Both the position numbers and the translations under genes were made by a program. Below, piece by piece: positions 33,349-47,000 of a stretch of DNA of 64,000 nt (positions within the stretch are counted from its first letter, which is position 1; each line of letters starts with the position of its first letter). The stretch lies in NCBI GenBank assembly GCA_021083345.1, contig JAJGRE010000001.1:1178001-1242000 (forward strand), written 5' to 3'. This stretch comes from Calditrichales bacterium MX18-03 (GTDB taxonomy: Bacteria; Bacillota; Clostridia; Lutisporales; Lutisporaceae). The notes below the pieces were generated by a model. That model worked only from the letters and a program-made list of their open reading frames with translations. It was not told where the DNA came from and did no database searches.

Positions 33349-34323
33349 CTATTTCATTTCAATGGCTTTCTTGGGGCATTTGGCAACACATTGACTGCAG
33401 CCGACACATTTGTCTTCCAGAATCTTGTGTTTGCCCTTCAGTTCTCCCTCAATGGCTTCAAAATTGCAGTGCTTTTTACAGATCGTGCAGCCAATGCACT
33501 TGTCGTCAATGATGGCAGCCTTCTTGCGGTTCTTGAAGTTGGCATAGATCGTCTTGGTGGGGCAGGCTTCTGCGCACATCATGCAGTTGACACATTTGCT
33601 GTAATCGATCTTTGCAAGATTGTTTTCAAATACAATCGCATCAAATTTACAAGCTTTAACGCATTTCTGGCATGCGATGCAGCCCACCTTGCAGGATTCC
33701 ATGACTGCCTTGCCCTTTTCTGTATTTTTGCAGAGTACCCTGACTTCTTTGGAAACTGGGACCAGCTCGATAATATTTTTTGGACATACTGCAATGCACT
33801 TCTTACATGCCGTACATTTTTCTTCATCTACGACAGCTACCCCGTTGACAACATGAATGGCATCGAAGGGGCAAGCCTTGACACAGGTTCCCAGCCCTGT
33901 GCAGCCGAAGCGGCAGCTTTTGGAACCGCCTGCCAGCATCTCTGCCGCCTTGCAGTCCTCTATACCGAAATACTCGTATTTTTCTTTTGCATTATTTTTA
34001 TCACCACAGCAGATGACCCTGGCAACATGCTTTTCCATGCTGTCGGCTTCAACGCCCATCAACGCTGCAATCTTCGCTGCCAGTTCAGACCCCCCTACCG
34101 GACATGCGGTAATGGCGGCGTCGCCTTTCACGATTGCATCCGCCAGGGCATCACAGCCTGCATACCCGCAGCCGCCGCAATTTGCTCCCGGCAGTACATT
34201 TCTGATATCCGTCACCCTGGGGTCAACCTCTACTGCAAACTTCTTTGATGCAAAAGCCAGCACCAAGCCAAAGAAAATTGCCAGGCCACCCAGTGTTACA
34301 ACCGGCCACAAAACCATATTCAT
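33349..34323 (-). CDS. rnfB: Rnf complex subunit RnfB, polyferredoxin type
   Basis: About 324 residues. An N-terminal membrane helix, the NCGGCGYAGCDALA iron-sulfur domain, then six further ferredoxin-like cysteine motifs (CTGLGTCVKACP-, CTACKKCIAVCP, CIACQKCVKAC, CVNCMMCAEACP, CIGCTICKKHC, CVGCSQCVAKCP). It accepts electrons from reduced ferredoxin at the cytosolic face. GAGGTG upstream of MNMVLWPVV sets the start, giving the usual clostridial N-terminus. Last gene of rnfCDGEAB. Confidence 0.96.
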   Translation of the reverse strand: MNMVLWPVVTLGGLAIFFGLVLAFASKKFAVEVDPRVTDIRNVLPGANCGGCGYAGCDALADAIVKGDAAITACPVGGSELAAKIAALMGVEADSMEKHVARVICCGDKNNAKEKYEYFGIEDCKAAEMLAGGSKSCRFGCTGLGTCVKACPFDAIHVVNGVAVVDEEKCTACKKCIAVCPKNIIELVPVSKEVRVLCKNTEKGKAVMESCKVGCIACQKCVKACKFDAIVFENNLAKIDYSKCVNCMMCAEACPTKTIYANFKNRKKAAIIDDKCIGCTICKKHCNFEAIEGELKGKHKILEDKCVGCSQCVAKCPKKAIEMK

Positions 34324-34394
34324 AAAGGTGATCACCTCTTTCATAAAAAATCCGACTTGCGCCGTCTACGCGCGGCGTATATTTGCCGCGTCTG

Positions 34395-34979
34395 TTAGAA
34401 AAATTTGGAGAACAATCCTCCGAAGCCAAGGAATGCAATGGAGAAAAGGCTTGCTGCAATCATCGCGATGGGGAAGCCTTCCAATGCCTTGGGGATCGGA
34501 GCCGTTTCCAGCCGTTCCCTTACACCGGCAAACAGGACGATAGCCACTGTAAAGCTGATACCGCCGTAAATGCCGTTGAACAAAGTTGTAATGAGATTAT
34601 AGCTGCTCTGAATATTCAGGATGGCTACACCCAATACGGCGCAGTTTGTGGTGATTAGGGGAAGATATACGCCCAGGGCCTGATACAGAGTGGGGCTGGT
34701 CTTTTTGATTACCATTTCCACAAATTGAACCAAACCGGCAATAACCAGGATAAAGGCTATTGTCTGCATATATTCGATATGAAGCGGTACCAGCACAAAA
34801 TACTGCACCAGCCAGCTCATAACGGAAGCCAAGCCCATGACGAACGTAACGGCTACACTCATGCCGATAGCCGTTTCAACCTTTTTGGAAACGCCCAGGA
34901 AGGGACATATCCCCAAAAACCTTGAAAGCACGAAGTTATTTATAAATACGGTACTGACCAATAATAATAATAGTGTCAT
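34395..34979 (-). CDS. rnfA: Rnf complex membrane subunit RnfA
   Basis: 194 residues with six spans. FINNFVLSRFLGICPFLGVSKK and LPLITTNCAVLGVAI carry the two half-site cysteines that together with RnfE hold an intramembrane 2Fe-2S cluster. RnfA and RnfE are homologous and insert with opposite topology. GGAGG precedes the ATG. Confidence 0.97.
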   Translation of the reverse strand: MTLLLLLVSTVFINNFVLSRFLGICPFLGVSKKVETAIGMSVAVTFVMGLASVMSWLVQYFVLVPLHIEYMQTIAFILVIAGLVQFVEMVIKKTSPTLYQALGVYLPLITTNCAVLGVAILNIQSSYNLITTLFNGIYGGISFTVAIVLFAGVRERLETAPIPKALEGFPIAMIAASLFSIAFLGFGGLFSKFF

Positions 34980-34993
34980 TACGCTGCCCTCCT

Positions 34994-35590
34994 CTAAGCT
35001 TTCTTACGCGAAGTAAGTTTGTTTACTGCAGCAATTGTCAAACCAAAGACAAGGAATCCGCCGGGGGGCAGTATCATGATCAAAGCCGGCTCGAAGCCTG
35101 CGCCGAAAAGTGGCATGCCGAAGATCGTTCCGGCTCCCAGGATCTCCCTGACAGAGCTGATGATGACAAGTGCCAATGTAAAGCCGATGCCCATTCCGAT
35201 ACCGTCCATGACGGAATTGAGTGGCGGGTTTTTGGCAGCAAAAGACTCTGCCCTGGCGAGGATAATACAGTTAACAACGATCAGGGGTATGAATATCCCC
35301 AGCTGTTTGTCCAGTTCCGGTGAAAAGGCCTGTATCAGCATCTGCACCGCTGTAACGAAGGTTGCTATGACTACGATATAAATCGGGATCCTGACTTCAT
35401 TTGGAACAATTTTCTTGATTGCCGATATAATCAGGTTGGAGCCGATCAGAACGGCGGTTGCAGCTATTCCCATGCCGATCCCGTTAAACAGCGCAGTTGT
35501 AACAGCCAGCGTAGGGCATGTTCCCAGAACCAGTCTCAATACAGGATTTTCTTTAATGATGCCGTTCTTAAAATCCTTCCACAAATTCAT
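34994..35590 (-). CDS. rnfE: Rnf complex membrane subunit RnfE
   Basis: 198 residues with six spans. NPVLRLVLGTCPTLAVTTALFNGIGMG and LIVVNCIILARAESFA carry the conserved cysteines shared with RnfA. GGAGGTGAAGTAG precedes the ATG. It lies 25 bases after rnfG and 14 before rnfA. Confidence 0.97.
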   Translation of the reverse strand: MNLWKDFKNGIIKENPVLRLVLGTCPTLAVTTALFNGIGMGIAATAVLIGSNLIISAIKKIVPNEVRIPIYIVVIATFVTAVQMLIQAFSPELDKQLGIFIPLIVVNCIILARAESFAAKNPPLNSVMDGIGMGIGFTLALVIISSVREILGAGTIFGMPLFGAGFEPALIMILPPGGFLVFGLTIAAVNKLTSRKKA

Positions 35591-35615
35591 CTACTTCACC
35601 TCCAAGTTAATATTT

Positions 35616-36200
35616 CTATTTTCCGGATAATTCCTTCGCTGCTTCCATTGCCTGATTGACCCCAAGGGCAACAGCCTTGGAGGTAATAGTAGCACCGGCT
35701 ATAGCAACGATCTCATTGTCCTTTGGAGTTCCGCTCTTAATAACACCGACAGCGTTATCCCATTTCTTGGCGTTAAACTGGTCCTGGAACTTCGGGTTGG
35801 CAGCGTTCTTTCCAAGTCCGGGCGTCTCGGTATTGTTTCCCACCTTGATGCCTTGAATGCTACCTTCCAGACTGATCCCGACCATCACTTCAACGGGTCC
35901 TGCATAACCCTTCGGTGCAGTCTTGATGGCATAACCGATTACGTTGCCGCCCGACTTTGCCAAGTAAGCTTCCTGAACGGTGCTGTACTTGCTGTTTCCC
36001 TTAATTTTGGAAAATGCAGCCTCATCCAACTGTTCAAACGTGTCTGCGTCGGACATGACGGCTTTTCTGGCTTCATCGTTTGACCGGACGATCTGTTCCT
36101 GTATCTTATCAAAGGTAATGTCATTGGTAAAACCTAAAAGTGCGGCTGCAATCGCACAGACAATGAACAATATTCCTGCCAATCTTACATAATCACGCAC
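35616..36200 (-). CDS. rnfG: Rnf complex flavoprotein subunit RnfG
   Basis: 194 residues. One N-terminal membrane helix (LAGILFIVCAIAAALLGF) and an extracytoplasmic FMN-binding domain; AIAGATITSKAV contains the threonine that carries covalent FMN. GTG start behind GGAGGTG; it overlaps the rnfD end by eight bases. Confidence 0.96.
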   Translation of the reverse strand: MRDYVRLAGILFIVCAIAAALLGFTNDITFDKIQEQIVRSNDEARKAVMSDADTFEQLDEAAFSKIKGNSKYSTVQEAYLAKSGGNVIGYAIKTAPKGYAGPVEVMVGISLEGSIQGIKVGNNTETPGLGKNAANPKFQDQFNAKKWDNAVGVIKSGTPKDNEIVAIAGATITSKAVALGVNQAMEAAKELSGK

Positions 36201-37185
36201 TTTTCTTCACCTCCCCGAATTTTTTGGGCATGGTATACCGGTCGATCAGCGGTGTAGCAATATTCATCAACAGGATCGAATAGGATACACCCTCCGGATA
36301 GCCTCCAAAGAACCGGATCACGGCAGTCAGGAGGCCGCAGCCGATACCCATGATGATCTGGCCTTTTGCAGTCATCGGTGAAGTGGAATAATCAGTGGCC
36401 ATAAAAAATGCGCCTAGGAATAAACCGCCTGAAACCAGGTGGTAAACCATCAGGTAAAAATCAAATTTGCCGAACAGCAGGGCCAGAACAGCGACCGTTC
36501 CAATATAGCTGGCCGGTATTCTGTAGCTTATGACGCCCCTATACATCAAGTAGGCTCCCCCAAGCAAAAGTGCAAGGGCTGAGGTTTCACCGATACATCC
36601 GCCGATGCTTCCCATAAAAAGCTGCGTCAGGCTCGGCAGTACCTGTCCTGCCGCTTCACCGCCGGCTGCAGCCGGTACGCCCTGTGCATACTGGATGCCT
36701 TCCTTAACCAGGGCCAGCGGTGTTGCTGTCGAAACAGCATCAGCACCGGGTGTTACCCAGTTGGTCATCCTGACCGGCCAGGATGCCAGAAGCATGGCTC
36801 TGGCTGCCAGTGCCGGATTAATGAAATTATAGCCCAATCCGCCGAAGCATTGCTTGGCAATCACAATTGCGAATATTGAACCGATGGCTACCATCCAAAG
36901 CGGTGCGGTAACAGGCAGGTTGAAAGCTAAGAGCACCCCGGTAACGGCGGCACTCAAATCGTTTATGGTCACAGGCCGCTTCATCAGCTTTTGCATCGCT
37001 GCTTCTGCAGCAACTGCAAAGACCACAGCCACAATAGTCACTGTCAATGCTTTAAAACCGAAATAAAGAATACCGGCTAAAAGTGCAGGCATTAATGCCA
37101 GTATCACGTCCAGCATTACTCTCTGAGTCGTTTCACCCGCCCGGATATGAGGCGATGATGAAACGATAAATCTACTATTCTCCAA
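36193..37185 (-). CDS. rnfD: Rnf complex membrane subunit RnfD
   Basis: About 330 residues, multi-spanning. SPHIRAGETTQRVMLDVILALMP at the start, GGLGYNFINPALAARAMLLASWP, and DAVSTATPLALVKEG, where a threonine is expected to carry FMN. GGAGGGG six bases before a TTG fixes the start. RnfD takes part in the ion-translocating electron path. Confidence 0.96.
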   Translation of the reverse strand: MENSRFIVSSSPHIRAGETTQRVMLDVILALMPALLAGILYFGFKALTVTIVAVVFAVAAEAAMQKLMKRPVTINDLSAAVTGVLLAFNLPVTAPLWMVAIGSIFAIVIAKQCFGGLGYNFINPALAARAMLLASWPVRMTNWVTPGADAVSTATPLALVKEGIQYAQGVPAAAGGEAAGQVLPSLTQLFMGSIGGCIGETSALALLLGGAYLMYRGVISYRIPASYIGTVAVLALLFGKFDFYLMVYHLVSGGLFLGAFFMATDYSTSPMTAKGQIIMGIGCGLLTAVIRFFGGYPEGVSYSILLMNIATPLIDRYTMPKKFGEVKKSA

Positions 37186-37199
37186 TTTTACCCCTCCTA

Positions 37200-38537
37200 T
37201 CACTTCGATTGAGCCTTTTTACGCCTTGCCAGGATCTCACGCTTTGCCACTCTGATTGAATCCACCAGCGGTCTCTTGGCCGGACATACAAAGGAGCAGG
37301 ACCCACATTCGATGCAGTCCATGGCATGCAGTCCCTCAGCTTGCTCAAACCGATCCAGCAGTGCATTGGCACTGATATTGATGGGCATCAGATTGATTGG
37401 ACATACGTCGATGCATTTTCCGCAGCGGATGCAGTTTGAAGGCTTCGGTAGTCTGGCTTCTTGCTCGGACAGTATAAGTATTCCCGACGTTCCCTTGATA
37501 ACCGGAACATCCAGGGAAAACTGGGTAATACCCATCATGGGGCCCCCTGCCACGATTTTTCCTACCTGTCCGTTCAAGCCGCCGCATTGCTCAACTACTT
37601 CCCTGAAGGATGTCCCTATCTTAACCATCAGATTCTTGGGCGTTTTTACACCGGCTCCGGTAATGGTGACGATTCTTTCCACCAGCGGCATGCCGGTCTT
37701 TATAGCTTTTGCCACGGCTGCGGCTGTGCCTACGTTGTTTACCACGACACCGGCATCTGCAGGCAGCCCGCCTGAAGGTACTTCTCTTCCGGTACACGCA
37801 TAAATCAATTGCTTTTCAGCACCCTGGGGGTATTTGGTTTTCAGAGCGACAACCTCTATCCCTTCAATACCCTTTGCAGCGTTGTAGATGACTTCAATCG
37901 CATCGGGTTTATTGACCTCAATCCCGATAAAGCCTTTTTTCACACCCAATGCCTTCATCAATGCCTTAAGGCCGTCAACGACATCCTCGGGGCTTTCCAG
38001 CATGAGCCTGTGATCGGCTGTCAAATACGGTTCGCACTCAGCGCCGTTTAAAATGACGGTATCCACCTTCTTGTCCGGCGGCGGTGCCAGTTTGACATGG
38101 GTGGGGAAAGCAGCGCCGCCCATACCCACAATGCCTGCGTCCTTGATAATGGTTTTGATTTCATCCGCTGTCAGGTTTTCGATGTCACCCTTCGGTGCGA
38201 TATCCGGATGCACGGTATTTTGCATATCCGATTCGATCACCACACAGGTAACCACCGTACCACCGGTATAAAGTCTCGGCTCTACGGAAACCACTCTGCC
38301 GGAAACACTGGAATGGACCGGTACCGATACAAAGCCTTTGGCTTCTCCAATTTTCTGTCCCAGCTTGACTTCATCCCCTGCCTTTACAATAGGCTCGCAT
38401 GGCGCGCCAATATGCTGCTGCATCGGAATGATAACAAGCTTCGGCTCCAATGTCCTTTCTACGGCATGCATTTCAGTGGCTTTCTTGCTGTGTGGTGGAT
38501 GAGTCCCGCCCTTAAATGTCAGAGTTCTAATATTCAA
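37200..38537 (-). CDS. rnfC: Rnf complex NADH-binding subunit RnfC
   Basis: 445 residues. HPPHSKKATEM at the N-terminus, NAD/FMN-binding region (IVGMGGAAFPTHVKL; LNGAECEPYLTADHRLM), SLBB-like region and two 4Fe-4S motifs CIRCGKCIDVCP and CIECGSCSFVCP. It hands electrons to NAD+. Start is TTG behind GGGGTGAGG. First gene of rnfCDGEAB, the usual bacterial order; the complex couples ferredoxin oxidation to Na+ or H+ export. Confidence 0.97.
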   Translation of the reverse strand: MNIRTLTFKGGTHPPHSKKATEMHAVERTLEPKLVIIPMQQHIGAPCEPIVKAGDEVKLGQKIGEAKGFVSVPVHSSVSGRVVSVEPRLYTGGTVVTCVVIESDMQNTVHPDIAPKGDIENLTADEIKTIIKDAGIVGMGGAAFPTHVKLAPPPDKKVDTVILNGAECEPYLTADHRLMLESPEDVVDGLKALMKALGVKKGFIGIEVNKPDAIEVIYNAAKGIEGIEVVALKTKYPQGAEKQLIYACTGREVPSGGLPADAGVVVNNVGTAAAVAKAIKTGMPLVERIVTITGAGVKTPKNLMVKIGTSFREVVEQCGGLNGQVGKIVAGGPMMGITQFSLDVPVIKGTSGILILSEQEARLPKPSNCIRCGKCIDVCPINLMPINISANALLDRFEQAEGLHAMDCIECGSCSFVCPAKRPLVDSIRVAKREILARRKKAQSK

Positions 38538-39018: not shown

Positions 39019-39543
39019 ATGGTAATCATATACAATTGCTATGGCGGTACACATTCCTCTATCCTATCCTCCGCAGTCCATCTGGGAAAGCTGCCTTCTG
39101 ACCGGATTCCGACCAAAAACGAAATCAGGAATCTGACATATTTCAACAAGCTCCGATACAAGGATATGGGGAGGCTGATCTTTCATGGCATCGATGAAGC
39201 GGGGAACAAGGTCTACACCATCGGCAGGGGCACTTCCAGAGCGCTGATACCTGCCATGGAAAACCTGGTGGCGGAACTGCACCAGCTGTCGCAATTCCAA
39301 GAGCACTTCGCCTTTGTCAACACCTCCCATACCGTACCCTTAGCAATGACCATGGGAGGTTTTTTTTCCCGGGGGCTGCATCTGGATTTCATAGGAGAGC
39401 CGCTGCTTCTGACCGGAGCACGCCAAACCTATCCCAATATTCTGAAGCTGGTGGAAAAAACCAAGAAACTTTGCTCTGAAAAGCAGGAAATGTGTTTGAT
39501 CCTTGAATTGGATGGAAAAGGCCGGCTTAGTCTTATACACTAA
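39019..39543 (+). CDS. DUF3189 family protein
   Basis: 174 residues. The opening MVIIYNCYGGTHSSILSSAVHLGKLP is the DUF3189 signature as I know it, found in sporulating Firmicutes; the Cys and the GGTHSS loop look like an active or ligand site. FHGIDEAGNKVYTIGRGTSR and NTSHTVPLAMTMGGF follow. No signal or membrane segment. Function unknown. GAGGTGACGAT precedes the ATG. It is the only plus-strand gene between about 9.3 and 47 kb. Confidence 0.85.
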   Translation: MVIIYNCYGGTHSSILSSAVHLGKLPSDRIPTKNEIRNLTYFNKLRYKDMGRLIFHGIDEAGNKVYTIGRGTSRALIPAMENLVAELHQLSQFQEHFAFVNTSHTVPLAMTMGGFFSRGLHLDFIGEPLLLTGARQTYPNILKLVEKTKKLCSEKQEMCLILELDGKGRLSLIH

Positions 39544-39557: not shown

Positions 39558-41351
39558 TTATTTCTTTTCTATAGCCTTGAACGGGCATTTTGTCATACAA
39601 ACGCCGCACTTGATGCACTTGTCGGAGTTGATCTTGTATACTGTTTTTGGCTGTCCGGAGATGCAGGAAACCGGGCACTGTTTTGCGCAGATTCCGCATC
39701 CCTTGCACTTTTCATCGATAACCGTATAACTCAACAGTGCTTGACAAACGCCTGCCGGGCATTTCTTGTCCCGAATATGAGCTTCATATTCATCCCTAAA
39801 ATACTTCAAGGTAGACAGGATGGGGTTGGGTGCTGTCTGGCCCAGACCGCAGAGTGCGGAATTCTTGATGTTCTTTGCCAGTGTCTCCAGCTTTTCGATA
39901 TCGGATTCTTCGCCTTTACCCTCAGTGATCCTTTCCAGGATCTCCAGCATTCTCTTGGTGCCTTCACGGCAGGGTGTACACTTGCCGCAGGACTCATCGA
40001 CAGTGAAGTCAAGGAAGTACCTTGCGATGTCTACCATACAGTTGTCTTCATCCATAACGATCAATCCGCCGGAACCCATCATGGAGCCTAAAGCGATCAG
40101 GTTCTCATAATCGATAGCTACATCCAGGTGGGATGCCGGTATGCAACCCCCTGAAGGACCTCCCGTCTGGGCTGCCTTATATTTTTTGCCATTGGGGCAT
40201 CCGCCGCCGATTTCGTATATGACTTCCCGCATGGTGGTACCCATAGGGATTTCCACAAGTCCTGTATTGTTGATCTTCCCACCCAGTGCGAATACTTTTG
40301 TACCCTTGGATTTTTCAGTACCCATGCTTGCAAACCATTCCGGACCATTCAGGAAAATAGGACAGATGTTGGCATAGGTTTCAACATTATTGAGGATCGT
40401 TGGCTTGCCGAAAAGACCTTTTACTGCCGGGAACGGCGGTCTGGGCCTTGGCATGCCCCTCTGGCCTTCAATGGACGCTATTAACGCAGTTTCTTCGCCG
40501 CACACAAATGCGCCGGCACCCAGTCTGACTTCAAGGTCGAAATTGAAGTTTGTTCCCATAATGCCCTTGCCCAGCAAGCCGTATTCCCTTGCCTGGCTGA
40601 TGGCAATGGCAAGACGCTTAACGGCAATGGGGTACTCTGCTCTGACATAGATATAACCCTGGTTTGCACCGATCGCATAGCCGGCTATGGTCATAGCTTC
40701 GATAACAGAGTGCGGGTCTCCCTCGAGTACGCTTCTGTCCATGAATGCGCCTGGGTCTCCTTCGTCCGCATTGCAAAGAACATACTTCTGCTCATTGTGG
40801 GATTTTGAAGCAAATTCCCACTTCATGCCTGTGGGGAAGCCGGCACCGCCTCTTCCTCTCAAGCCTGACTTCTTGACCGTATCAATGACCTGAACAGGTG
40901 TCATTTCCGTCAGGACCTTTGCCAACGCTTTATAGCCGTCAAAGGCTATGTATTCGTCAATATTCTCTGGGTTTATGATGCCGCAGTTTCTCAGCGCTAC
41001 ACGAACCTGCTTCTTATAGAAATCTACTTCGTTGATGGACTTTATTCTATCTTCTTCAACAGACTCCGCATAGAGCAGTCTCTTGACCACTCTGCCCTTT
41101 ACCAGGTGCTCTTTGACGATCTCTTCCACATCTTCCGGCTTGACCAGACTATAGAAGGAGGCCTCCGGGTAAATGATCACGATGGGGCCTAAAGCGCAGA
41201 GTCCGAAGCAGCCAGTTCTCTCAACCACGACTTCTTTCTCAAGGCCGTGTTTTTTGATTTCTTCTTCAAAATTCTTGGCGATCTGCTCGGAATTGGCGGA
41301 AGTACAGCCGGTACCCCTGCAGATCATGACATGGGAACGATACATCTCCAT
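39558..41351 (-). CDS. NADH-binding NuoF/HydB-like flavin and iron-sulfur subunit
   Basis: 597 residues. N-terminal thioredoxin-like 2Fe-2S domain (CRGTGC near 11-16, TGCFGLC), NuoF core (GLRGRGGAGFPTGMKWEF; NADEGDPGAFMDRS; LEVRLGAGAFVCGEETALI) binding FMN and NAD(H), SLBB, 4Fe-4S (SCGKCTPCREGTKRML), and two C-terminal 4Fe-4S motifs (CKGCGICAKQCP, CIKCGVCMTKCP). This is the beta subunit layout of electron-bifurcating or NADP-reducing hydrogenases (HydB/HndC). The catalytic HydA is not downstream; a terminator is. Confidence 0.94.
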   Translation of the reverse strand: MEMYRSHVMICRGTGCTSANSEQIAKNFEEEIKKHGLEKEVVVERTGCFGLCALGPIVIIYPEASFYSLVKPEDVEEIVKEHLVKGRVVKRLLYAESVEEDRIKSINEVDFYKKQVRVALRNCGIINPENIDEYIAFDGYKALAKVLTEMTPVQVIDTVKKSGLRGRGGAGFPTGMKWEFASKSHNEQKYVLCNADEGDPGAFMDRSVLEGDPHSVIEAMTIAGYAIGANQGYIYVRAEYPIAVKRLAIAISQAREYGLLGKGIMGTNFNFDLEVRLGAGAFVCGEETALIASIEGQRGMPRPRPPFPAVKGLFGKPTILNNVETYANICPIFLNGPEWFASMGTEKSKGTKVFALGGKINNTGLVEIPMGTTMREVIYEIGGGCPNGKKYKAAQTGGPSGGCIPASHLDVAIDYENLIALGSMMGSGGLIVMDEDNCMVDIARYFLDFTVDESCGKCTPCREGTKRMLEILERITEGKGEESDIEKLETLAKNIKNSALCGLGQTAPNPILSTLKYFRDEYEAHIRDKKCPAGVCQALLSYTVIDEKCKGCGICAKQCPVSCISGQPKTVYKINSDKCIKCGVCMTKCPFKAIEKK

Positions 41352-41379: not shown

Positions 41380-41748
41380 TTATTTGTCTTCCGCTCCGAT
41401 TGTATACTCCTCTACAACCTTGCCCTGTCTGATATGCTCATTTACGATGCGGATTGCCTTGCCTTCGTTTACCTTTACGTATGTCACCTTCTCTTCGCCG
41501 GGCCTGTAGACTTCAACGATGGGCTCCAGACGGCACATGCCGATGCAGCCGGTCTGCGCCACGATGACATCTGCGAGACTATTCTTCTTTACTTCATCCA
41601 TTATCGTCAAAAGAACCGGTCTTGCACCTGCTGCAATCCCGCAGGTTGCCATTCCGACTACGACTCTTGTTCCGGATCTGTCTTTTCTCACATTAATGGT
41701 TTCCAGGGTCCTTCTTCTTATTTCTTCCAATTCCTGAATCGATTTCAT
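41380..41748 (-). CDS. HndB-like thioredoxin-fold 2Fe-2S protein
   Basis: 122 residues: VVVGMATCGIAAGARPVL and AQTGCIGMCRLEPIVEV match the HndB family of NADP-reducing hydrogenases as I recall it. Only three cysteines are visible, where a classical thioredoxin-like 2Fe-2S site uses four. Its ATG overlaps the stop of the GHKL ATPase by one base. It probably relays electrons or assists the NuoF-like subunit. Confidence 0.88.
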   Translation of the reverse strand: MKSIQELEEIRRRTLETINVRKDRSGTRVVVGMATCGIAAGARPVLLTIMDEVKKNSLADVIVAQTGCIGMCRLEPIVEVYRPGEEKVTYVKVNEGKAIRIVNEHIRQGKVVEEYTIGAEDK

Positions 41749-42314
41749 TATTGTACACCTCCATGCAAATTCGCTAAACCTTCTTTAATATAATCGTTAA
41801 TCCATGCCAAAACTTCCGGTTCGGTCAATGATACGTCTGCTCCCAGAACTGCCTTGATCTCACGCGTATCGAAGACGAACGTTCTGCCGTTCAGCATGTG
41901 CGTATAAACAAAATCAACACTACCCTTTTCATTGATACCGCATAATATCAGGGTGACCAGCGTCTCCGCCATATTCCCTATGGGCGCCCTGTCAATATGG
42001 CTGTACCTGAATACAGCGGTAAGCTTTGTACCGCTCCCTAAACTGGAAACGATCTCCAGATCGCCGTCACATCTCCTGCAAGCGGCCAGCATCAAGGGTA
42101 TACCCAGTCCGATGCGCCTGCTGGTCCGTGTCGTAACAAAGGGATCTTTTACGCTGGCCAGCAGCTCCGGCGGCATCCCTTTTCCATTGTCTTCAATCAA
42201 AATGGTCAGCCGGTCCGATACGGCATCCTCATTGATTGAAATGGCGACCAGGTCTGCGACCGCAGATATTGCATTCTGAGCCAAATCAAGTACGTGCAGC
42301 GACAAGTCCTTCAT
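41748..42314 (-). CDS. GHKL ATP-binding protein of the hydrogenase-type operon
   Basis: 188 residues. Bergerat-fold boxes are N (DLAQNAISAV), G1 (IEDNGKGMP) and G2 (RIGLGIPLML). There is no phosphoacceptor His domain. Homologues sit between NuoE- and NuoF-like genes in Clostridia such as C. thermocellum (from memory). Role unknown: a protein kinase or an assembly or regulatory ATPase are both possible. Confidence 0.88.
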   Translation of the reverse strand: MKDLSLHVLDLAQNAISAVADLVAISINEDAVSDRLTILIEDNGKGMPPELLASVKDPFVTTRTSRRIGLGIPLMLAACRRCDGDLEIVSSLGSGTKLTAVFRYSHIDRAPIGNMAETLVTLILCGINEKGSVDFVYTHMLNGRTFVFDTREIKAVLGADVSLTEPEVLAWINDYIKEGLANLHGGVQ

Positions 42315-42322
42315 ATGGCGCT

Positions 42323-42796
42323 TTATTCGTATTTCTTCAATATGCCTGGTATATCGTCGGCTGCAAGCTTGCCGTATACGTCCTCATTGATCATGATTAC
42401 AGGTGCAAGACCGCAGCAGCCCAAGCATCTTGTCGCTTCCAAAGTGAATTTGCCGTCATCCGTGGAATCCCCGGGCTTAATCTTCAATTCATCCTTCAGT
42501 CTGTCCATGATGCTCTGAGCATCCTTTACATAACAGGCCGTTCCCAGACATACCCCGATTGTGTATTTGCCTCTGGGCTTTAATGTAAATCTTGAATAGA
42601 ATGTAGCAACGCCGTATATTTCCGCCGTTGGTACAAGGGTAACCTCGGATATTCTCTTCTGGGCTTCTTCGGGGAGATATCCGAACAGTTCCTGTGTTTC
42701 GTGAAGAATTGGCATAAGTGCGCCTTGCTTATTCTTGTGTTCTTCCAATATATGCTCCAATTTCTCCATTTTTTCTTTGAATGCAATGTCCGACAT
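42323..42796 (-). CDS. NuoE/HydC-like 2Fe-2S subunit
   Basis: 157 residues. Helical N-terminus with LMPILHETQELFGYLPEEAQ, then a thioredoxin-like 2Fe-2S domain: GVCLGTACYVK and TRCLGCCGLAPVI provide the four cysteines. It pairs with the NuoF-like subunit. First gene of the NuoE-ATPase-HndB-NuoF operon, with a candidate promoter and a Rex-like site upstream. Confidence 0.95.
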   Translation of the reverse strand: MSDIAFKEKMEKLEHILEEHKNKQGALMPILHETQELFGYLPEEAQKRISEVTLVPTAEIYGVATFYSRFTLKPRGKYTIGVCLGTACYVKDAQSIMDRLKDELKIKPGDSTDDGKFTLEATRCLGCCGLAPVIMINEDVYGKLAADDIPGILKKYE

Positions 42797-42840
42797 TAGG
42801 GGTTCCCTCCTTCGAAATGTGTAAAATAAACCGTATCCAA

Positions 42841-42858
42841 TTGACAGAAATTTATCAA
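42841..42858. promoter_or_regulatory. Rex-like redox operator candidate
   Basis: On the minus strand TTGATAA-ATTT-CTGTCAA, 18 nt, against the clostridial Rex consensus TTGTTAA-N4-TTAACAA (10 of 14 fixed positions). It lies about 20 nt downstream of the candidate -10 box, a repressing position. Rex answers the NADH/NAD+ ratio, which suits this operon. The match is inexact. Confidence 0.35.
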
Positions 42859-42876
42859 TTAAATCACCTAAAACTT

Positions 42877-42905
42877 ATTGTAACATAAACCTGTTCTTTT
42901 TTTAA
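42877..42905 (-). promoter_or_regulatory. Candidate promoter of the NuoE-like operon
   Basis: TTAAAA (42905-42900), 17-nt spacer, TACAAT (42882-42877). A run of A and T (42909-42932) lies just upstream, like an UP element. Confidence 0.45.
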
Positions 42906-43012
42906 CAAGAAAAAAAATTTTTTTTTTTGCTTTCATGGTTTTTTGGGAGATTCCGGGGAAAACTATTTGTTTTCGGCTTGTGCAGGCAGCGGCGGAATGC
43001 GGTGCGATGCAG

Positions 43013-43723
43013 TCATCCATCCAGCTTTTTAAACAACTCCGAAAGGCTGAGATAGTCCAGATCGATAAAAAACTCCCTTTCATTGATATCCTGTAAATAA
43101 TGGGCATCAGAGGACACTATGTACTGATACTTTTTAAGGAAGGGATATTTTTCCATCATATGCTTCGGCCTATTTTTTTTGGATATCTCAATTGTTTTTA
43201 CCTTTAAGGACGGCGGTACGAAGCCCAGGTTGGTCATGATACTGTATCCCGTCCTATCTATATGGGCAGGTATGCAGATTCCGCCAAGCCCTCTCACCAA
43301 TATAAAAACATCGTTGACCGAAAGCGTTGTGGAGGAAAGCAGCAGCTTGTCTACTTTGCCGGTAATCCTGTCGGAAGCGTCCAATATCAATTGACTTCCA
43401 AACACCGCTTCGTTTGCCGGCATATCGGGCAGACAGTTATATACGATCTCGCCGAACTTCATTGCGGCTTCCAGCCTCTTAAAGAGGCATAGTATATGAA
43501 CCTCCTCCTTGGTCTGCACCTCCATCCCCGGGATGACCATCAGGCCGTTGGCAGCCCCTACCGCCAGCAAGGCAGGCAGGTTATGGCAGGCATTGTGATC
43601 TGTGACAGCAATGATATCCAATCCCTTCAGCAACGCCATATTCACGATGTTGTTGGGTGTCATGTCATCATCCCCGCAGGGCGAAAGCACGCTGTGAATG
43701 TGAAAATCCACTGCAAATTCCAT
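43013..43723 (-). CDS. PHP-domain metal-dependent phosphoesterase
   Basis: 236 residues. Metal ligands follow the PHP order: HIHS, TDHNA, the Glu in GMEVQTKEEVHIL, IPAHIDR and SSDAHYL. The family includes phosphatases and 3',5'-nucleotide exonucleases; the substrate is unknown. It lies two bases after the second DRTGG gene and ends the signalling-type set before the NuoE operon. Confidence 0.9.
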   Translation of the reverse strand: MEFAVDFHIHSVLSPCGDDDMTPNNIVNMALLKGLDIIAVTDHNACHNLPALLAVGAANGLMVIPGMEVQTKEEVHILCLFKRLEAAMKFGEIVYNCLPDMPANEAVFGSQLILDASDRITGKVDKLLLSSTTLSVNDVFILVRGLGGICIPAHIDRTGYSIMTNLGFVPPSLKVKTIEISKKNRPKHMMEKYPFLKKYQYIVSSDAHYLQDINEREFFIDLDYLSLSELFKKLDG

Positions 43724-43725
43724 GG

Positions 43726-44061
43726 CTATTCGATGCCTGCCTTGCAGAAGGCCTTGGCAAGCGCATAGGCACTCATGGAGGACTGCAGTATGGGAATCCC
43801 CTCGACCTCCGCTTTCTGCAGCGTCTCTTCCTCAACCTCGATGCCTTCCGGTACGATCACACAGGCCAGCTCCAGCAATACGGCAACTGCAATCACATTG
43901 GAATGGGTCTGCACCGTGATCCATGCATCCCCCTTTCCGGCATGGGCCATGACCCAGCTCAGAAGATCACAGATATAGAGTCCTGTCAATTCCTTATCCA
44001 AGCCCACGTTGCCTGCCAGTACCCGTAATCCGATTTTTTCACTCACGTCCCTGATTAACAT
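43726..44061 (-). CDS. DRTGG domain protein (second copy)
   Basis: 111 residues: LRVLAGNVGLDKELTGLYICDLLSWVMAHAGKGDAWITVQTH and IPILQSSMSAYALAKAF are DRTGG-domain features (the HPr-kinase N-terminal-like fold, a putative ligand-binding module). GGAGG sets the start at MLIRDVS. It overlaps the hydrogenase-like gene by 23 bases. Probable small-molecule or partner sensor. Confidence 0.82.
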   Translation of the reverse strand: MLIRDVSEKIGLRVLAGNVGLDKELTGLYICDLLSWVMAHAGKGDAWITVQTHSNVIAVAVLLELACVIVPEGIEVEEETLQKAEVEGIPILQSSMSAYALAKAFCKAGIE

Positions 44062-45361
44062 TTTGTCCCTCCTTGCCGTTTCCGGCATTTTTCTTATTCT
44101 TCAAGTTTTCCATTGTCTTGACGATACAAATGGCTTTTTGGTTTTCGCCTTTTACGATATCTTCGGCAAAGGCACGGCAGGTGGGTGCGCCGCAGACGCC
44201 GCAGTCTATTCCCGGCAGATATTTCATCATTTCCTTGATCATTTCCATTTTTTTGATGGATTTGGCGATATCTTCATCCAGCCGTGTGATTTCCTTGGGT
44301 TCTATCTTTTCAGTCAGTCGGATGAAGCCATCTTCATACATCCTGATCTGGTGGGCTACCGCTTCATCGGTAGGCTGATTGCCCGGAAGACCTTTGGCCA
44401 GGGACCGTATGCGGCTTCTGGCGATAAAAGGATTTTCCAGCGTCAGCGGTCCCCCCACACAGCCGCCGATACAGGCCATGCCTTCAAAAAACTCCAGATC
44501 TTCCAGTTTCTCCATCTCTATCTCTTCCAGCACCTTAATCACTTCATGAATCCCATCCACTGCCAAGTAGTTTTCAATGCCTAAGGATACTGATTGTCCG
44601 CCGATGATGGGCCACAGGAGCGCATCCTTTGTACCTCGCACCAGATTCTCGGTGGGACCGTTGTTCAGATTGCGCAGAATTTCACCATAAATCGTTTTCA
44701 TGGACACCACGCCGTCCATATAGGATCTTTCAATGCCCAGCGGATTCCTGATGCTGGTCATCCGGGCGGTGCAAGGAGATATGAAGATGACGCCGATTTC
44801 TTCCATAGGCAGCCCGGTTTTTCTGACTGCCTCCTGCTTGGCCAGACGTGCCGTGATTTCCATAGGCGTTTCGATATCGATGATGTTGGGAATCAGTTCG
44901 GGAAATCGTACCTGTATAAGCCGCAGGATCGCCGGACAGGTTGCATTGATCAGAGGCTTTCTGATATCCGGCTTCTTTAATATATGCCTGGATATGACAT
45001 TGGATATGATATCAATGCCCAATGCAGCTTCATATACCTCGTCAAAGCCGATGCGCTTGATGGCCGTCAGCATTTCGTTGATGCCCACATTTCCTGCAAA
45101 CTGGCCGTATAGCACCATGGACGGGATGGCAATGGTATATTTGAACCGCTTGATGATGTCAAGGCTGTCGGTGACGGCGCTCTTGGCTTTATTGGGACAA
45201 AGGCGGATGCATTCGCCGCAGTCAATGCACCTTTCACCGATGATCCGCGCTTTACCGTCACGGACCCGGATGGCTTCAGTGGGGCAGGCCTTCAGGCAGT
45301 TGGTGCAGCCTATGCATCTGTCTTCCTTCAGTATAACCGAGTGAAAATATTGGTTCTCCAT
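44039..45361 (-). CDS. Atypical [FeFe]-hydrogenase-like iron-sulfur protein
   Basis: 440 residues. Two ferredoxin 4Fe-4S motifs (C16,19,22,26; C45,48,51,55), then a Fe_hyd_lg_C domain. The four H-cluster cysteine positions are kept: TCP (C142), SPC (C197), and CIGGC (C297, C301). The motifs otherwise differ from catalytic enzymes (usually TSCCP, MPC, ExMxCxGGC). A C-terminal 4Fe-4S domain has C386, C389, C394 and C411. There is no PAS domain. It resembles putative sensory hydrogenases, and the neighbours are signalling proteins, so H2 or redox sensing is inferred. Confidence 0.85.
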   Translation of the reverse strand: MENQYFHSVILKEDRCIGCTNCLKACPTEAIRVRDGKARIIGERCIDCGECIRLCPNKAKSAVTDSLDIIKRFKYTIAIPSMVLYGQFAGNVGINEMLTAIKRIGFDEVYEAALGIDIISNVISRHILKKPDIRKPLINATCPAILRLIQVRFPELIPNIIDIETPMEITARLAKQEAVRKTGLPMEEIGVIFISPCTARMTSIRNPLGIERSYMDGVVSMKTIYGEILRNLNNGPTENLVRGTKDALLWPIIGGQSVSLGIENYLAVDGIHEVIKVLEEIEMEKLEDLEFFEGMACIGGCVGGPLTLENPFIARSRIRSLAKGLPGNQPTDEAVAHQIRMYEDGFIRLTEKIEPKEITRLDEDIAKSIKKMEMIKEMMKYLPGIDCGVCGAPTCRAFAEDIVKGENQKAICIVKTMENLKNKKNAGNGKEGQNVNQGRE

Positions 45362-45793
45362 TCAAGCACCTGCTTTCAATGCCATTTCAATCGTGATGAC
45401 TGTACCTTTTCCTTTTTCCGATCTGACATAAAACCTATCCGAGTTTCTTTTCATATTGGGAAGACCCATTCCGGCACCAAAGCCCATTTCCCTTGCCTTG
45501 TCCGTGGCGGTAGAGTAGCCTTCCTGCATGGCCAGATCAATATCTTCTATTCCAGGGCCTCTGTCTGCTGCGATGACCCGTATATAGGACGGATCGATTT
45601 CCAGTTCAATGCATCCGCCCAGAGAGTGGATGACGATGTTGATTTCGGCTTCATAAGTGGCAATGGCAAGCCTTCTGATGATGCCGGAGTCAATGCCCAA
45701 TTGCCTCAATAGTTTCTTAATATTGCTGGATGCCTGGCCCGCAAGGACGAAGTCATCTTTTTCCACATTGAAGGTGTATTTCATTTGCTCCAT
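45362..45793 (-). CDS. RsbW/RsbT-like ATP-binding serine kinase
   Basis: 143 residues of HATPase_c_2 type. N box EAEINIVIHS, G1 ADRGPGIEDI, G2 GFGAGMGLPNM. RsbT-type and anti-sigma kinases phosphorylate a partner Ser/Thr. No partner STAS protein or PP2C phosphatase lies in the window. Its TGA is followed directly by the ATG of the hydrogenase-like gene (TGAATG). Confidence 0.88.
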   Translation of the reverse strand: MEQMKYTFNVEKDDFVLAGQASSNIKKLLRQLGIDSGIIRRLAIATYEAEINIVIHSLGGCIELEIDPSYIRVIAADRGPGIEDIDLAMQEGYSTATDKAREMGFGAGMGLPNMKRNSDRFYVRSEKGKGTVITIEMALKAGA

Positions 45794-45816
45794 AATCCGC
45801 TCCTCCGAATCCCATT

Positions 45817-46167
45817 CTAATCCAGCTGTATGCCGGCCAGGCCCCTTGCATAGAGCTTCCCCGAAGCCGAATAAAGGGTATCCCGTGTCAAAAGTACAAT
45901 GATGTTGTTCTCCTGGGCCAAACGGATGATATCCTCCTCCGGCTTTTTACCCCTGACAAAAACAATGGCGCTAAGGTCCGCCATTTCCGCCGTCCGGATG
46001 ACCTGCTGGTTAATGAGACCTGTCAGGAGCACCGTCTTTCCTTTTACAAATGCCAGGACATCGCTCATCAGGTCCGAACCGAATGCACAGCTGATTTCAG
46101 TGTCCAGGCCGTCAAATCCGCACAATATTTCTGCATTTAAAGCTTCCGCTATTTCTCTGACCTTCAT
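45817..46167 (-). CDS. DRTGG domain protein (first copy)
   Basis: 116 residues: MKVREIAEALNAEILCGFDG, SDLMSDVLAFVKGKTVLLTGL and NNIIVLLTRDTLYSASGKLY. The same small fold as the gene at 43726, with low visible identity. 23 bases before the kinase-like gene. Confidence 0.82.
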   Translation of the reverse strand: MKVREIAEALNAEILCGFDGLDTEISCAFGSDLMSDVLAFVKGKTVLLTGLINQQVIRTAEMADLSAIVFVRGKKPEEDIIRLAQENNIIVLLTRDTLYSASGKLYARGLAGIQLD

Positions 46168-46187: not shown

Positions 46188-47000
46188 CTAAATCGATAGC
46201 TTAGCCGCAAAATGAGCATAGGCTTCTATCTGATTGAACAAGCCTTCCTGAATCCTATAATAATCGTTTTTGACCGTTTCTTCAATCCTATGCGCCAATA
46301 TTGCAGCAAGAAGCTCCGAAAGCCTTTCTTTGAAAAGCACGACATTTTCACCGACTACCAGTTCCTCTGCGTAGGATCGGTATTTCTCCAGATGTGCTTC
46401 GTCAGCCGCAATATCTGCCAGGCGCTGCTCCACATTCTTGGCTGTTTTAGCATACAGCTCGCTGCTAAGCAGGGCTTTTTCGCCGGCGATTTTGCGGATG
46501 AGCTGTTCCGCTGATTCCGCAACCTCCATAAACAAACGGTCGCTGTCACTGTACCGGATATTGAAACTGCCGGCGTTAACCTCTTCGATGGTATTCTTCA
46601 CAGTCTTTGAAAGCAAGCCGCTGACCTTTTCAGCCGTCTCACGATCGGTAAAAACACCGAATATGACATGATAGCCGTCTTCTTTCAATATAAATGCATT
46701 CAGCTTTTTGCTTTTCAGCGTCGAAACATGCTTTTCTGCCATTTCAAAGCTGTCATACTGCCCCAAATTAACCCTATACAGCTTCCATAAGGTGACGGAA
46801 TAATCGTAGCTGTAAGCAGTCGTCGCTGCAGTATCGCTACCGGCAGCTGTCTCCTGGGTGCGCTGCTTTCCGGTATAGACCGACATGATCAGATAGGATG
46901 CTGTTATTGCCAAGACAGGAATCACAACCAGAAACAGCCACAAAAGCGCCGCTCTGACCGTACGCACCCGTTTATATTTTAAGACTCTTCCTGCTCTCAT
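46188..47000 (-). CDS. SPOR-like membrane-anchored protein
   Basis: 270 residues. A basic N-terminus, one membrane span ([21 protein letters not shown]), a SPOR-like domain (about 72-140; [51 protein letters not shown]), then a long helical tail. SPOR domains bind denuded glycan strands. AGGAG precedes the ATG. First gene ahead of the DRTGG set, 20 bases apart; whether it belongs functionally is unclear. Confidence 0.82.

Follow-up and report, generated by a model that had tools for sequence, protein, structure and literature searches.

A conserved DRTGG, RsbW-type and PHP gene cassette around a group D [FeFe]-hydrogenase-type putative sensor, and its variant in one clostridial family

Described sensor systems and the HydS locus

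The group D (M2e) [FeFe]-hydrogenases, whose signature was defined on TamHydS of Thermoanaerobacter mathranii (PMC8163306), have been proposed to act as sensors (PMC8163306, PMC13104023), and a 2026 study of TamHydS considered the finding of interaction partners to be critical for the clarification of the signalling mechanism (PMC13104023). The present analysis concerns a protein of this class, HydS, and its gene neighbourhood in a stretch of 64,000 nucleotides (the window, which refers here to the whole stretch) of Calditrichales bacterium MX18-03 (Lutisporaceae, Clostridia, Bacillota, in the GTDB; assembly GCA_021083345.1, contig JAJGRE010000001.1, positions 1,178,001 to 1,242,000 of the forward strand). 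What is new here is a conserved set of partners for a known sensor class, together with a variant, at the level of one family, in which the active-site path is changed. HydS, with its own cassette, may sense H2 or low-potential electrons and signal by reversible phosphorylation, and in the window's family this would be uncoupled from hydrogenase turnover; the reading is given about even chances of being correct.

TamHydS (PMC8163306, PMC10407848, PMC13104023) shares with the HydS of the window the N-terminal two-cluster domain, an H-domain with the group D ligand motifs, the C-terminal Cx2Cx4Cx16C cluster, the lack of both PAS and C299, the presence of a Ser in the place of M353, and a histidine-kinase-like ATPase reported as a neighbour. 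The window differs in having Q256 for E252, I253 for S249 and I411 for D403, in an operon without HydA and with Rnf downstream, and in its DRTGG, PHP and RsbW partners, which are not described in the TamHydS literature found. A literature search, with subscription journals largely outside its coverage, found no paper tying DRTGG or PHP genes to a group D HydS.

The group C sensors (TmHydS, T. saccharolyticum HfsB, and R. albus HydS) also have a sensor-type H-domain, a C-terminal cluster, and a linked kinase or phosphatase, and have been proposed to control the genes of hydrogenase and fermentation, but their output is a serine phosphatase or of another kind and they contain a PAS domain, whereas the window locus has no PAS and a PHP-type phosphoesterase. 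For example, the hfsA/hfsB deletions, in a PAS-type group C system, increased both the adhE transcripts and the ethanol yield (PMC5707799). The control of H2 and ferredoxin flow bears on fermentation yields, a field in which engineering already targets the group C system (PMC5707799).

Two further systems are comparable. The HydABC/Hnd operons of the Clostridia (NuoE-GHKL-HndB-NuoF-HydA) have the same order and architecture of NuoE, GHKL, HndB-like, and NuoF proteins, but the hydA of the window's genome is found at another locus, where hydEGF is its neighbour, as is also the case in two relatives. The RsbW/SpoIIAB/RsbT modules, in turn, share a small HATPase with a kinase-type ATP site, a small partner gene, and a phosphoesterase gene, but the window set has DRTGG for STAS, PHP for PP2C, and no sigma factor. 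The nine genes of the set, identified in the window by open reading frame (ORF) calls and by matches to Pfam and NCBIfam, are as follows (aa, amino acids):

45817..46167, minus strand: DRTGG1 (D1), a 116-aa DRTGG domain (Pfam, conservation, AlphaFold2 model, structural match)
45362..45793, minus strand: RsbW/SpoIIAB-type HATPase, 143 aa, with intact ATP-binding residues (Pfam, NCBIfam)
44039..45361, minus strand: HydS, a group D (M2e) [FeFe]-hydrogenase-type putative sensor, 440 aa (Pfam, tree, alignment)
43726..44088, minus strand: DRTGG2 (D2), a D1 paralogue whose start may be internal (Pfam, conservation)
43013..43723, minus strand: PHP-family metallo-phosphoesterase, 236 aa, with intact metal-site residues (Pfam)
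42323..42796, minus strand: NuoE/HydC-type [2Fe-2S] subunit of a bifurcating hydrogenase (Pfam, NCBIfam, conservation)
41748..42314, minus strand: GHKL (histidine-kinase-type) ATPase, 188 aa (Pfam, structural comparison, gene order)
41380..41748, minus strand: HndB/HydE-like [2Fe-2S] protein (NCBIfam fdxn_Clost, below the cut-off; conserved C36, C68, and C72)
39558..41351, minus strand: NuoF/HydB-type flavoprotein, 597 aa, with an N-terminal 2Fe-2S and a C-terminal 2x[4Fe-4S]; HydA is not next

An earlier note on this DNA had described nine minus-strand genes in this order, and both the number and the order hold, although the span that it gave (41380 to 46167) contains eight, with NuoF lying outside it. 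The gaps within the set are of 0-28 base pairs (bp), or there is a short overlap, with the exception of the 216 bp between PHP and NuoE.

By its motifs and its position in the tree, HydS is assigned to group D (M2e, TamHydS-type) as a putative sensory [FeFe]-hydrogenase, a class already described, so it is not the atypical protein that the earlier note had seen. The four H-cluster cysteines that the note had listed (C142, C197, C297, and C301) are invariant in 150/150 aligned rows, and the lack of a PAS domain, also read there, is borne out by Pfam. The N-terminal 2x[4Fe-4S] motif (C16/19/22/26 and C45/48/51/55) and the C-terminal motif (C387/390/395/412) are found as well; C299 is absent, with T141 there, and the M353 position is occupied by S195, in the manner of the group D Ser/Thr. 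Given that these motifs are normal for group D, apart from a few family-special changes, their description as degenerate was wrong. A degenerate hydrogenase or pseudogene is ruled out by the invariant ligand cysteines and the 61-74% identity across the genera of the family.

In the tree, which, like all those used here, was built by a quick method without bootstrap, and in which the T. wiegelii sequence stood for Thermoanaerobacter HydS in place of T. mathranii, the window HydS falls in a 14-row clade with Thermoanaerobacter HydS (support 99), outside group A and the types with PAS or methyl-accepting chemotaxis protein (MCP) domains. This position is separate from those of nine other hydrogenase-domain proteins of the same genome, which also has the maturase genes hydE, hydG, and hydF.

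The cassette and its candidate signalling proteins

The conservation of the neighbourhood was followed in 80 homologous loci with flanks of up to 10 kb, annotated with profiles built on the window proteins, and the presence counts of each gene are restricted to the loci whose flank permits a verdict. DRTGG1 is found upstream of HydS in 68 of 72 loci, PHP is found downstream in 64 of 72, and the script counted RsbW upstream in 70 of 77, although four of the seven loci scored as lacking RsbW do carry it, either fused with DRTGG1 in a single open frame (L082, Tepidanaerobacter; L144, Thermosediminibacteraceae) or missed by the distance rule of the script (L125 and L147). DRTGG2, the most divergent member, is seen in 54/75 loci, and several of its apparent absences leave a gap of DRTGG2 size. 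The same order is found in nearly all of 20 further, more distant loci (most at 38-46% identity), and the cassette is retained down to a HydS identity of 38-40%, spanning Bacillota and metagenome-assembled genomes of Desulfobacterota (L105, L118, and L132), which answers positively the question raised in the earlier note of whether the neighbourhood is conserved beyond close relatives. No homologue was found in the viral contigs searched.

RsbW is truly absent only at L085, L091, and L100 (Anaerosolibacter and Alkaliphilus), where DRTGG1-HydS represents a natural minimal version; L085 and L091, which have a long enough flank, also lack PHP.

The co-occurrence of these genes was analyzed in 148 genomes, of which 72 carry HydS, 70 carry a member of the PHP family, and 71 carry a member of the RsbW family. 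PHP is present in 70 of the 72 HydS genomes and in 0/76 of those without HydS, and RsbW is likewise present in 70/72 and in 1/76, respectively, which gives Fisher p values, uncorrected for phylogeny, of ~1e-40 (PHP-HydS) and ~1e-38 (RsbW-HydS). The HydS genomes without RsbW are G049, in which the contig starts inside HydS, and G084, while the sole genome with RsbW and no HydS (G132) is fragmented and belongs to the window's family. Given that PHP and HydS are on different contigs in four genomes (G010, G015, G021, and G052, some of these assemblies being fragmented), the association is not one of adjacency alone. On this pattern, RsbW and PHP appear to be dedicated HydS partners, and DRTGG1-RsbW-HydS-DRTGG2-PHP is, on these sequence comparisons, a conserved cassette; a chance neighbourhood is ruled out by approximately 100 other loci and by the 148-genome profile. 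Candidate partners for group D signalling, and with them a testable question, come from this almost complete co-occurrence and from the fusion of DRTGG1 with RsbW.

The invariant residues of RsbW include the N-box (E48/N52), D77xGxG, and a family-specific lid, GFGAGMGLPN. Its closest NCBIfam model is SpoIIAB (spIIAB), and this, together with the D1-RsbW fusion, would fit an anti-sigma factor whose sigma factor is encoded elsewhere and whose anti-anti-sigma factor is DRTGG1, but the match reaches 51.8 bits, far under the cut-off of 135, and the conserved neighbourhood has neither a sigma factor nor a STAS protein, which makes this explanation improbable. The Pfam search found no STAS domain among the cassette proteins, and the DRTGG proteins are present instead. 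D1 and D2, both above the Pfam DRTGG cut-off, share an invariant D-x-x-S (D32/S35 in D1 and D41/S44 in D2), and the AlphaFold2 model of D1, with a predicted local distance difference test score (pLDDT) of 95.8, places S35 at the N-terminus of a helix. The closest solved folds are DRTGG domains (2ioj, with a Z of 17.7 and a root-mean-square deviation of 2.0 over 114 residues, and also 3l2b), followed by the N-domains of Mur ligases and HPr kinases. An alignment with another DRTGG domain of this genome, in a 558-aa protein, was not usable for a comparison of the serine.

The metal-site residues of PHP are also invariant (H8, H10, D42, H43, E68, E73, H76, H154, D206, and H208). The GHKL ATPase has no DHp domain and has an additional C-terminal alpha/beta part, and it keeps company with the cassette where NuoE, HndB, NuoF, and HydA stand apart (L206-L209 and L123), which suggests that it belongs to the sensor rather than to the enzyme. 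The cassette therefore probably includes the GHKL ATPase in addition to DRTGG1, the RsbW-type kinase, DRTGG2, and PHP.

The simplest mechanism would be a DRTGG switch with RsbW as its writer and PHP as its eraser. HydS would pass the status of H2 or low-potential electrons to RsbW, which, perhaps together with GHKL, would phosphorylate a DRTGG protein, the candidate phosphosite being the helix-N-terminal invariant serine (S35 of D1, S44 of D2), in replacement of the STAS partner of the RsbW/SpoIIAB systems. PHP would then take the phosphate off the DRTGG protein, and the output would adjust the neighbouring ferredoxin/NAD enzyme, which is usually the bifurcating hydrogenase HydABC.

The tight linkage of the cassette to the enzyme genes may also be read as that of an assembly or protection factor for HydABC/Rnf, in which the ATPases and DRTGG would be chaperones and HydS an accessory electron carrier, and the model of GHKL does resemble MutL-type ATPases, weakly over its whole length. 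This has little probability, given that the cassette is separate from NuoEF/HydA in many genomes, that the N-box and lid of RsbW are of the kinase type, and that a group C relative alters gene expression (PMC5707799).

The HydS variant, HydA and Rnf in the window's family

The proton route of TamHydS was proposed as E252-E289-S249-D265 and was reported to be conserved in the group (PMC10407848), although this path was not part of the original definition of group D. The E252V/D mutants have <0.01% of the H2 oxidation left, and in E252V under H2, the electrons still reach the accessory clusters (PMC10407848). The TamHydS numbering was checked against the homologue of T. wiegelii, whose residues agree with those published at all of the positions cited.

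On this path, the window HydS has Q256 for E252 and I253 for S249, retaining E293 and D269, and the replacement of D403 by I411 lies beside the C-terminal cluster. Position 256 is E in 127 of 150 rows, Q in 18, A in 3, and D in 2 (with the window row counted twice). The E252 position is Q in 12/12 family loci and in 7/97 others, 86 of which have E, while the D403 position is I or V in 12/12 family loci and in 0/97 others; the best HydS tree has four changes to Q, of which at least two are forced by starred branches. Given that E252V still passes electrons under H2, the HydS of the family could sense without turnover, and its most likely role is that of a redox/H2 sensor for the ferredoxin/NADH branch with no turnover, or with very slow turnover. 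This natural E252Q family represents a ready-made test of whether sensing requires H2 turnover. The sensor reading of the earlier note is partly supported, in its agreement with the published proposals for group D (PMC8163306, PMC13104023), and the answer on whether HydS falls in a clade of proven activity, which the note had also raised, is divided: group D includes the slow-turnover TamHydS, and the window's family is without the glutamate needed for TamHydS H2 oxidation.

Two divergent HydS, at L168 and L172, carry Asp at the E252 position, and at L172 the HydS frame is in two pieces, with the remaining cassette intact.

The NuoE-NuoF part of the locus, which the earlier note had treated as a separate module, is, by its domains and order, a bifurcating-hydrogenase operon (NuoE-GHKL-HndB-NuoF) minus its catalytic subunit, HydA, which was not found after NuoF either in the window or in the operons of the family. 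Rnf, an ion-pumping enzyme, occupies, in the window's family, the place held by HydA in other lineages, and RnfC comes after NuoF in all seven of the family loci (the window included) whose contig extends there. The complete Rnf operon of the window (33349..38537, minus strand), with RnfC identified by Pfam and the other subunits by ORF sequence and order, is made up of:

37200-38537, minus strand: RnfC
36193-37203, minus strand: RnfD
35616-36200, minus strand: RnfG
34994-35590, minus strand: RnfE
34395-34979, minus strand: RnfA
33349-34344, minus strand: RnfB

An orphan HydA is found in 5/5 family genomes searched (76-82% identity, with one copy cut by the contig end), adjoining hydEGF in the window's own genome, G081, and G132, and it falls, with starred support, inside the operon-HydA clade in a HydA tree without the NuoF rows. 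This rules out the total loss of HydA.

The nesting of this HydA among the operon HydAs, its presence in every family genome searched, the intact Fe-S cysteines of NuoE, and the spectroscopic response of E252V TamHydS to H2 would all be expected if the HydS of the family were an ordinary group D H2 sensor, in which Q256 and the absence of a neighbouring HydA have no consequence, and HydA from elsewhere joins NuoE and NuoF as HydABC, regulated by the cassette in trans. On the other hand, E252Q and D403I/V are fixed in 12/12 family loci, which is unlike drift, with E in 86/97 others, and the ordinary sensor is only a tentative alternative, well behind even chances.

Several points weigh against the non-turnover phosphorylation sensor. 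The phosphotransfer, its target, and the signal are all inferred, there is neither a STAS protein nor a transcription factor within the cassette, and the invariant DRTGG serine could instead be a ligand-binding residue. In addition, E252Q is not among the TamHydS mutants of PMC10407848 and may keep some activity, the Q-type locus L209 retains HydA nearby, and Rnf, which follows the cassette in the Q lineages L181 and L206, likewise follows the E-type cassettes L119, L144, L147, and L169. Because there are only 2-4 independent E252Q events, which leaves the independent-pairs test without power, a link between E252Q and Rnf, or between E252Q and the absence of HydA, cannot be established, and the changes in E252, HydA, and Rnf, taken together, describe the window's family and do not show a correlation.

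A broader proposal is that HydS-RsbW-DRTGG-PHP may form a new type of phospho-pathway across anaerobes, with DRTGG replacing STAS, and that in the window's family this pathway would once have served HydABC by H2-turnover sensing and would now serve the Rnf/ferredoxin branch by redox sensing without turnover; in this full form it is unlikely.

Adjacent genes and other hydrogenase-type sensors

The remaining features of the locus are one gene on either side of the set:

46188..47000, minus strand: SPOR-domain protein, 270 aa, 20 bp upstream of DRTGG1 (ORF and Pfam SPOR)
39019..39543, plus strand: DUF3189 gene between NuoF and Rnf, which separates two transcripts (ORF, Pfam)

The SPOR-domain gene is probably the first gene of the transcript, and a homologue precedes DRTGG1 at some other loci; this gene, the Rnf operon downstream, and the absence of HydA after NuoF had gone unmentioned in the earlier note. 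A scan of the window with Rfam found no RNA element, and the counts of a promoter and terminator scan were near the shuffled expectation.

Other hydrogenase-type sensors are found in the same genome. A 911-aa protein (L161:11239-13974; G000:C8:620241-622973, minus strand) joins a sensory [FeFe]-hydrogenase domain, an FeS cluster, PAS, and a sigma-54 activator with a helix-turn-helix, and is possibly a one-component H2-responsive transcription factor, with near end-to-end homologues in 8/148 genomes, its own included. Two [FeFe]-hydrogenase-MCP fusions (L164:3952-5865 and L165:3656-5899) are also present, the latter adjoining a CheA-like gene (named by eye), and a sensory hydrogenase at L163:3927-6817 is followed by a SpoIIE-type phosphatase, as in the phosphatase-linked group C3 of HydDB. 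Given the sigma-54 fusion, the two MCP fusions, and the SpoIIE-linked sensor, H2 or redox state seems to be conveyed through several outputs in this bacterium. The sigma-54 fusion adjoins NuoE, HydA, and a 1030-aa fusion (L161:7407-10499) that joins NuoF and a pyridine nucleotide-disulphide oxidoreductase module containing a Fer4_20 domain.

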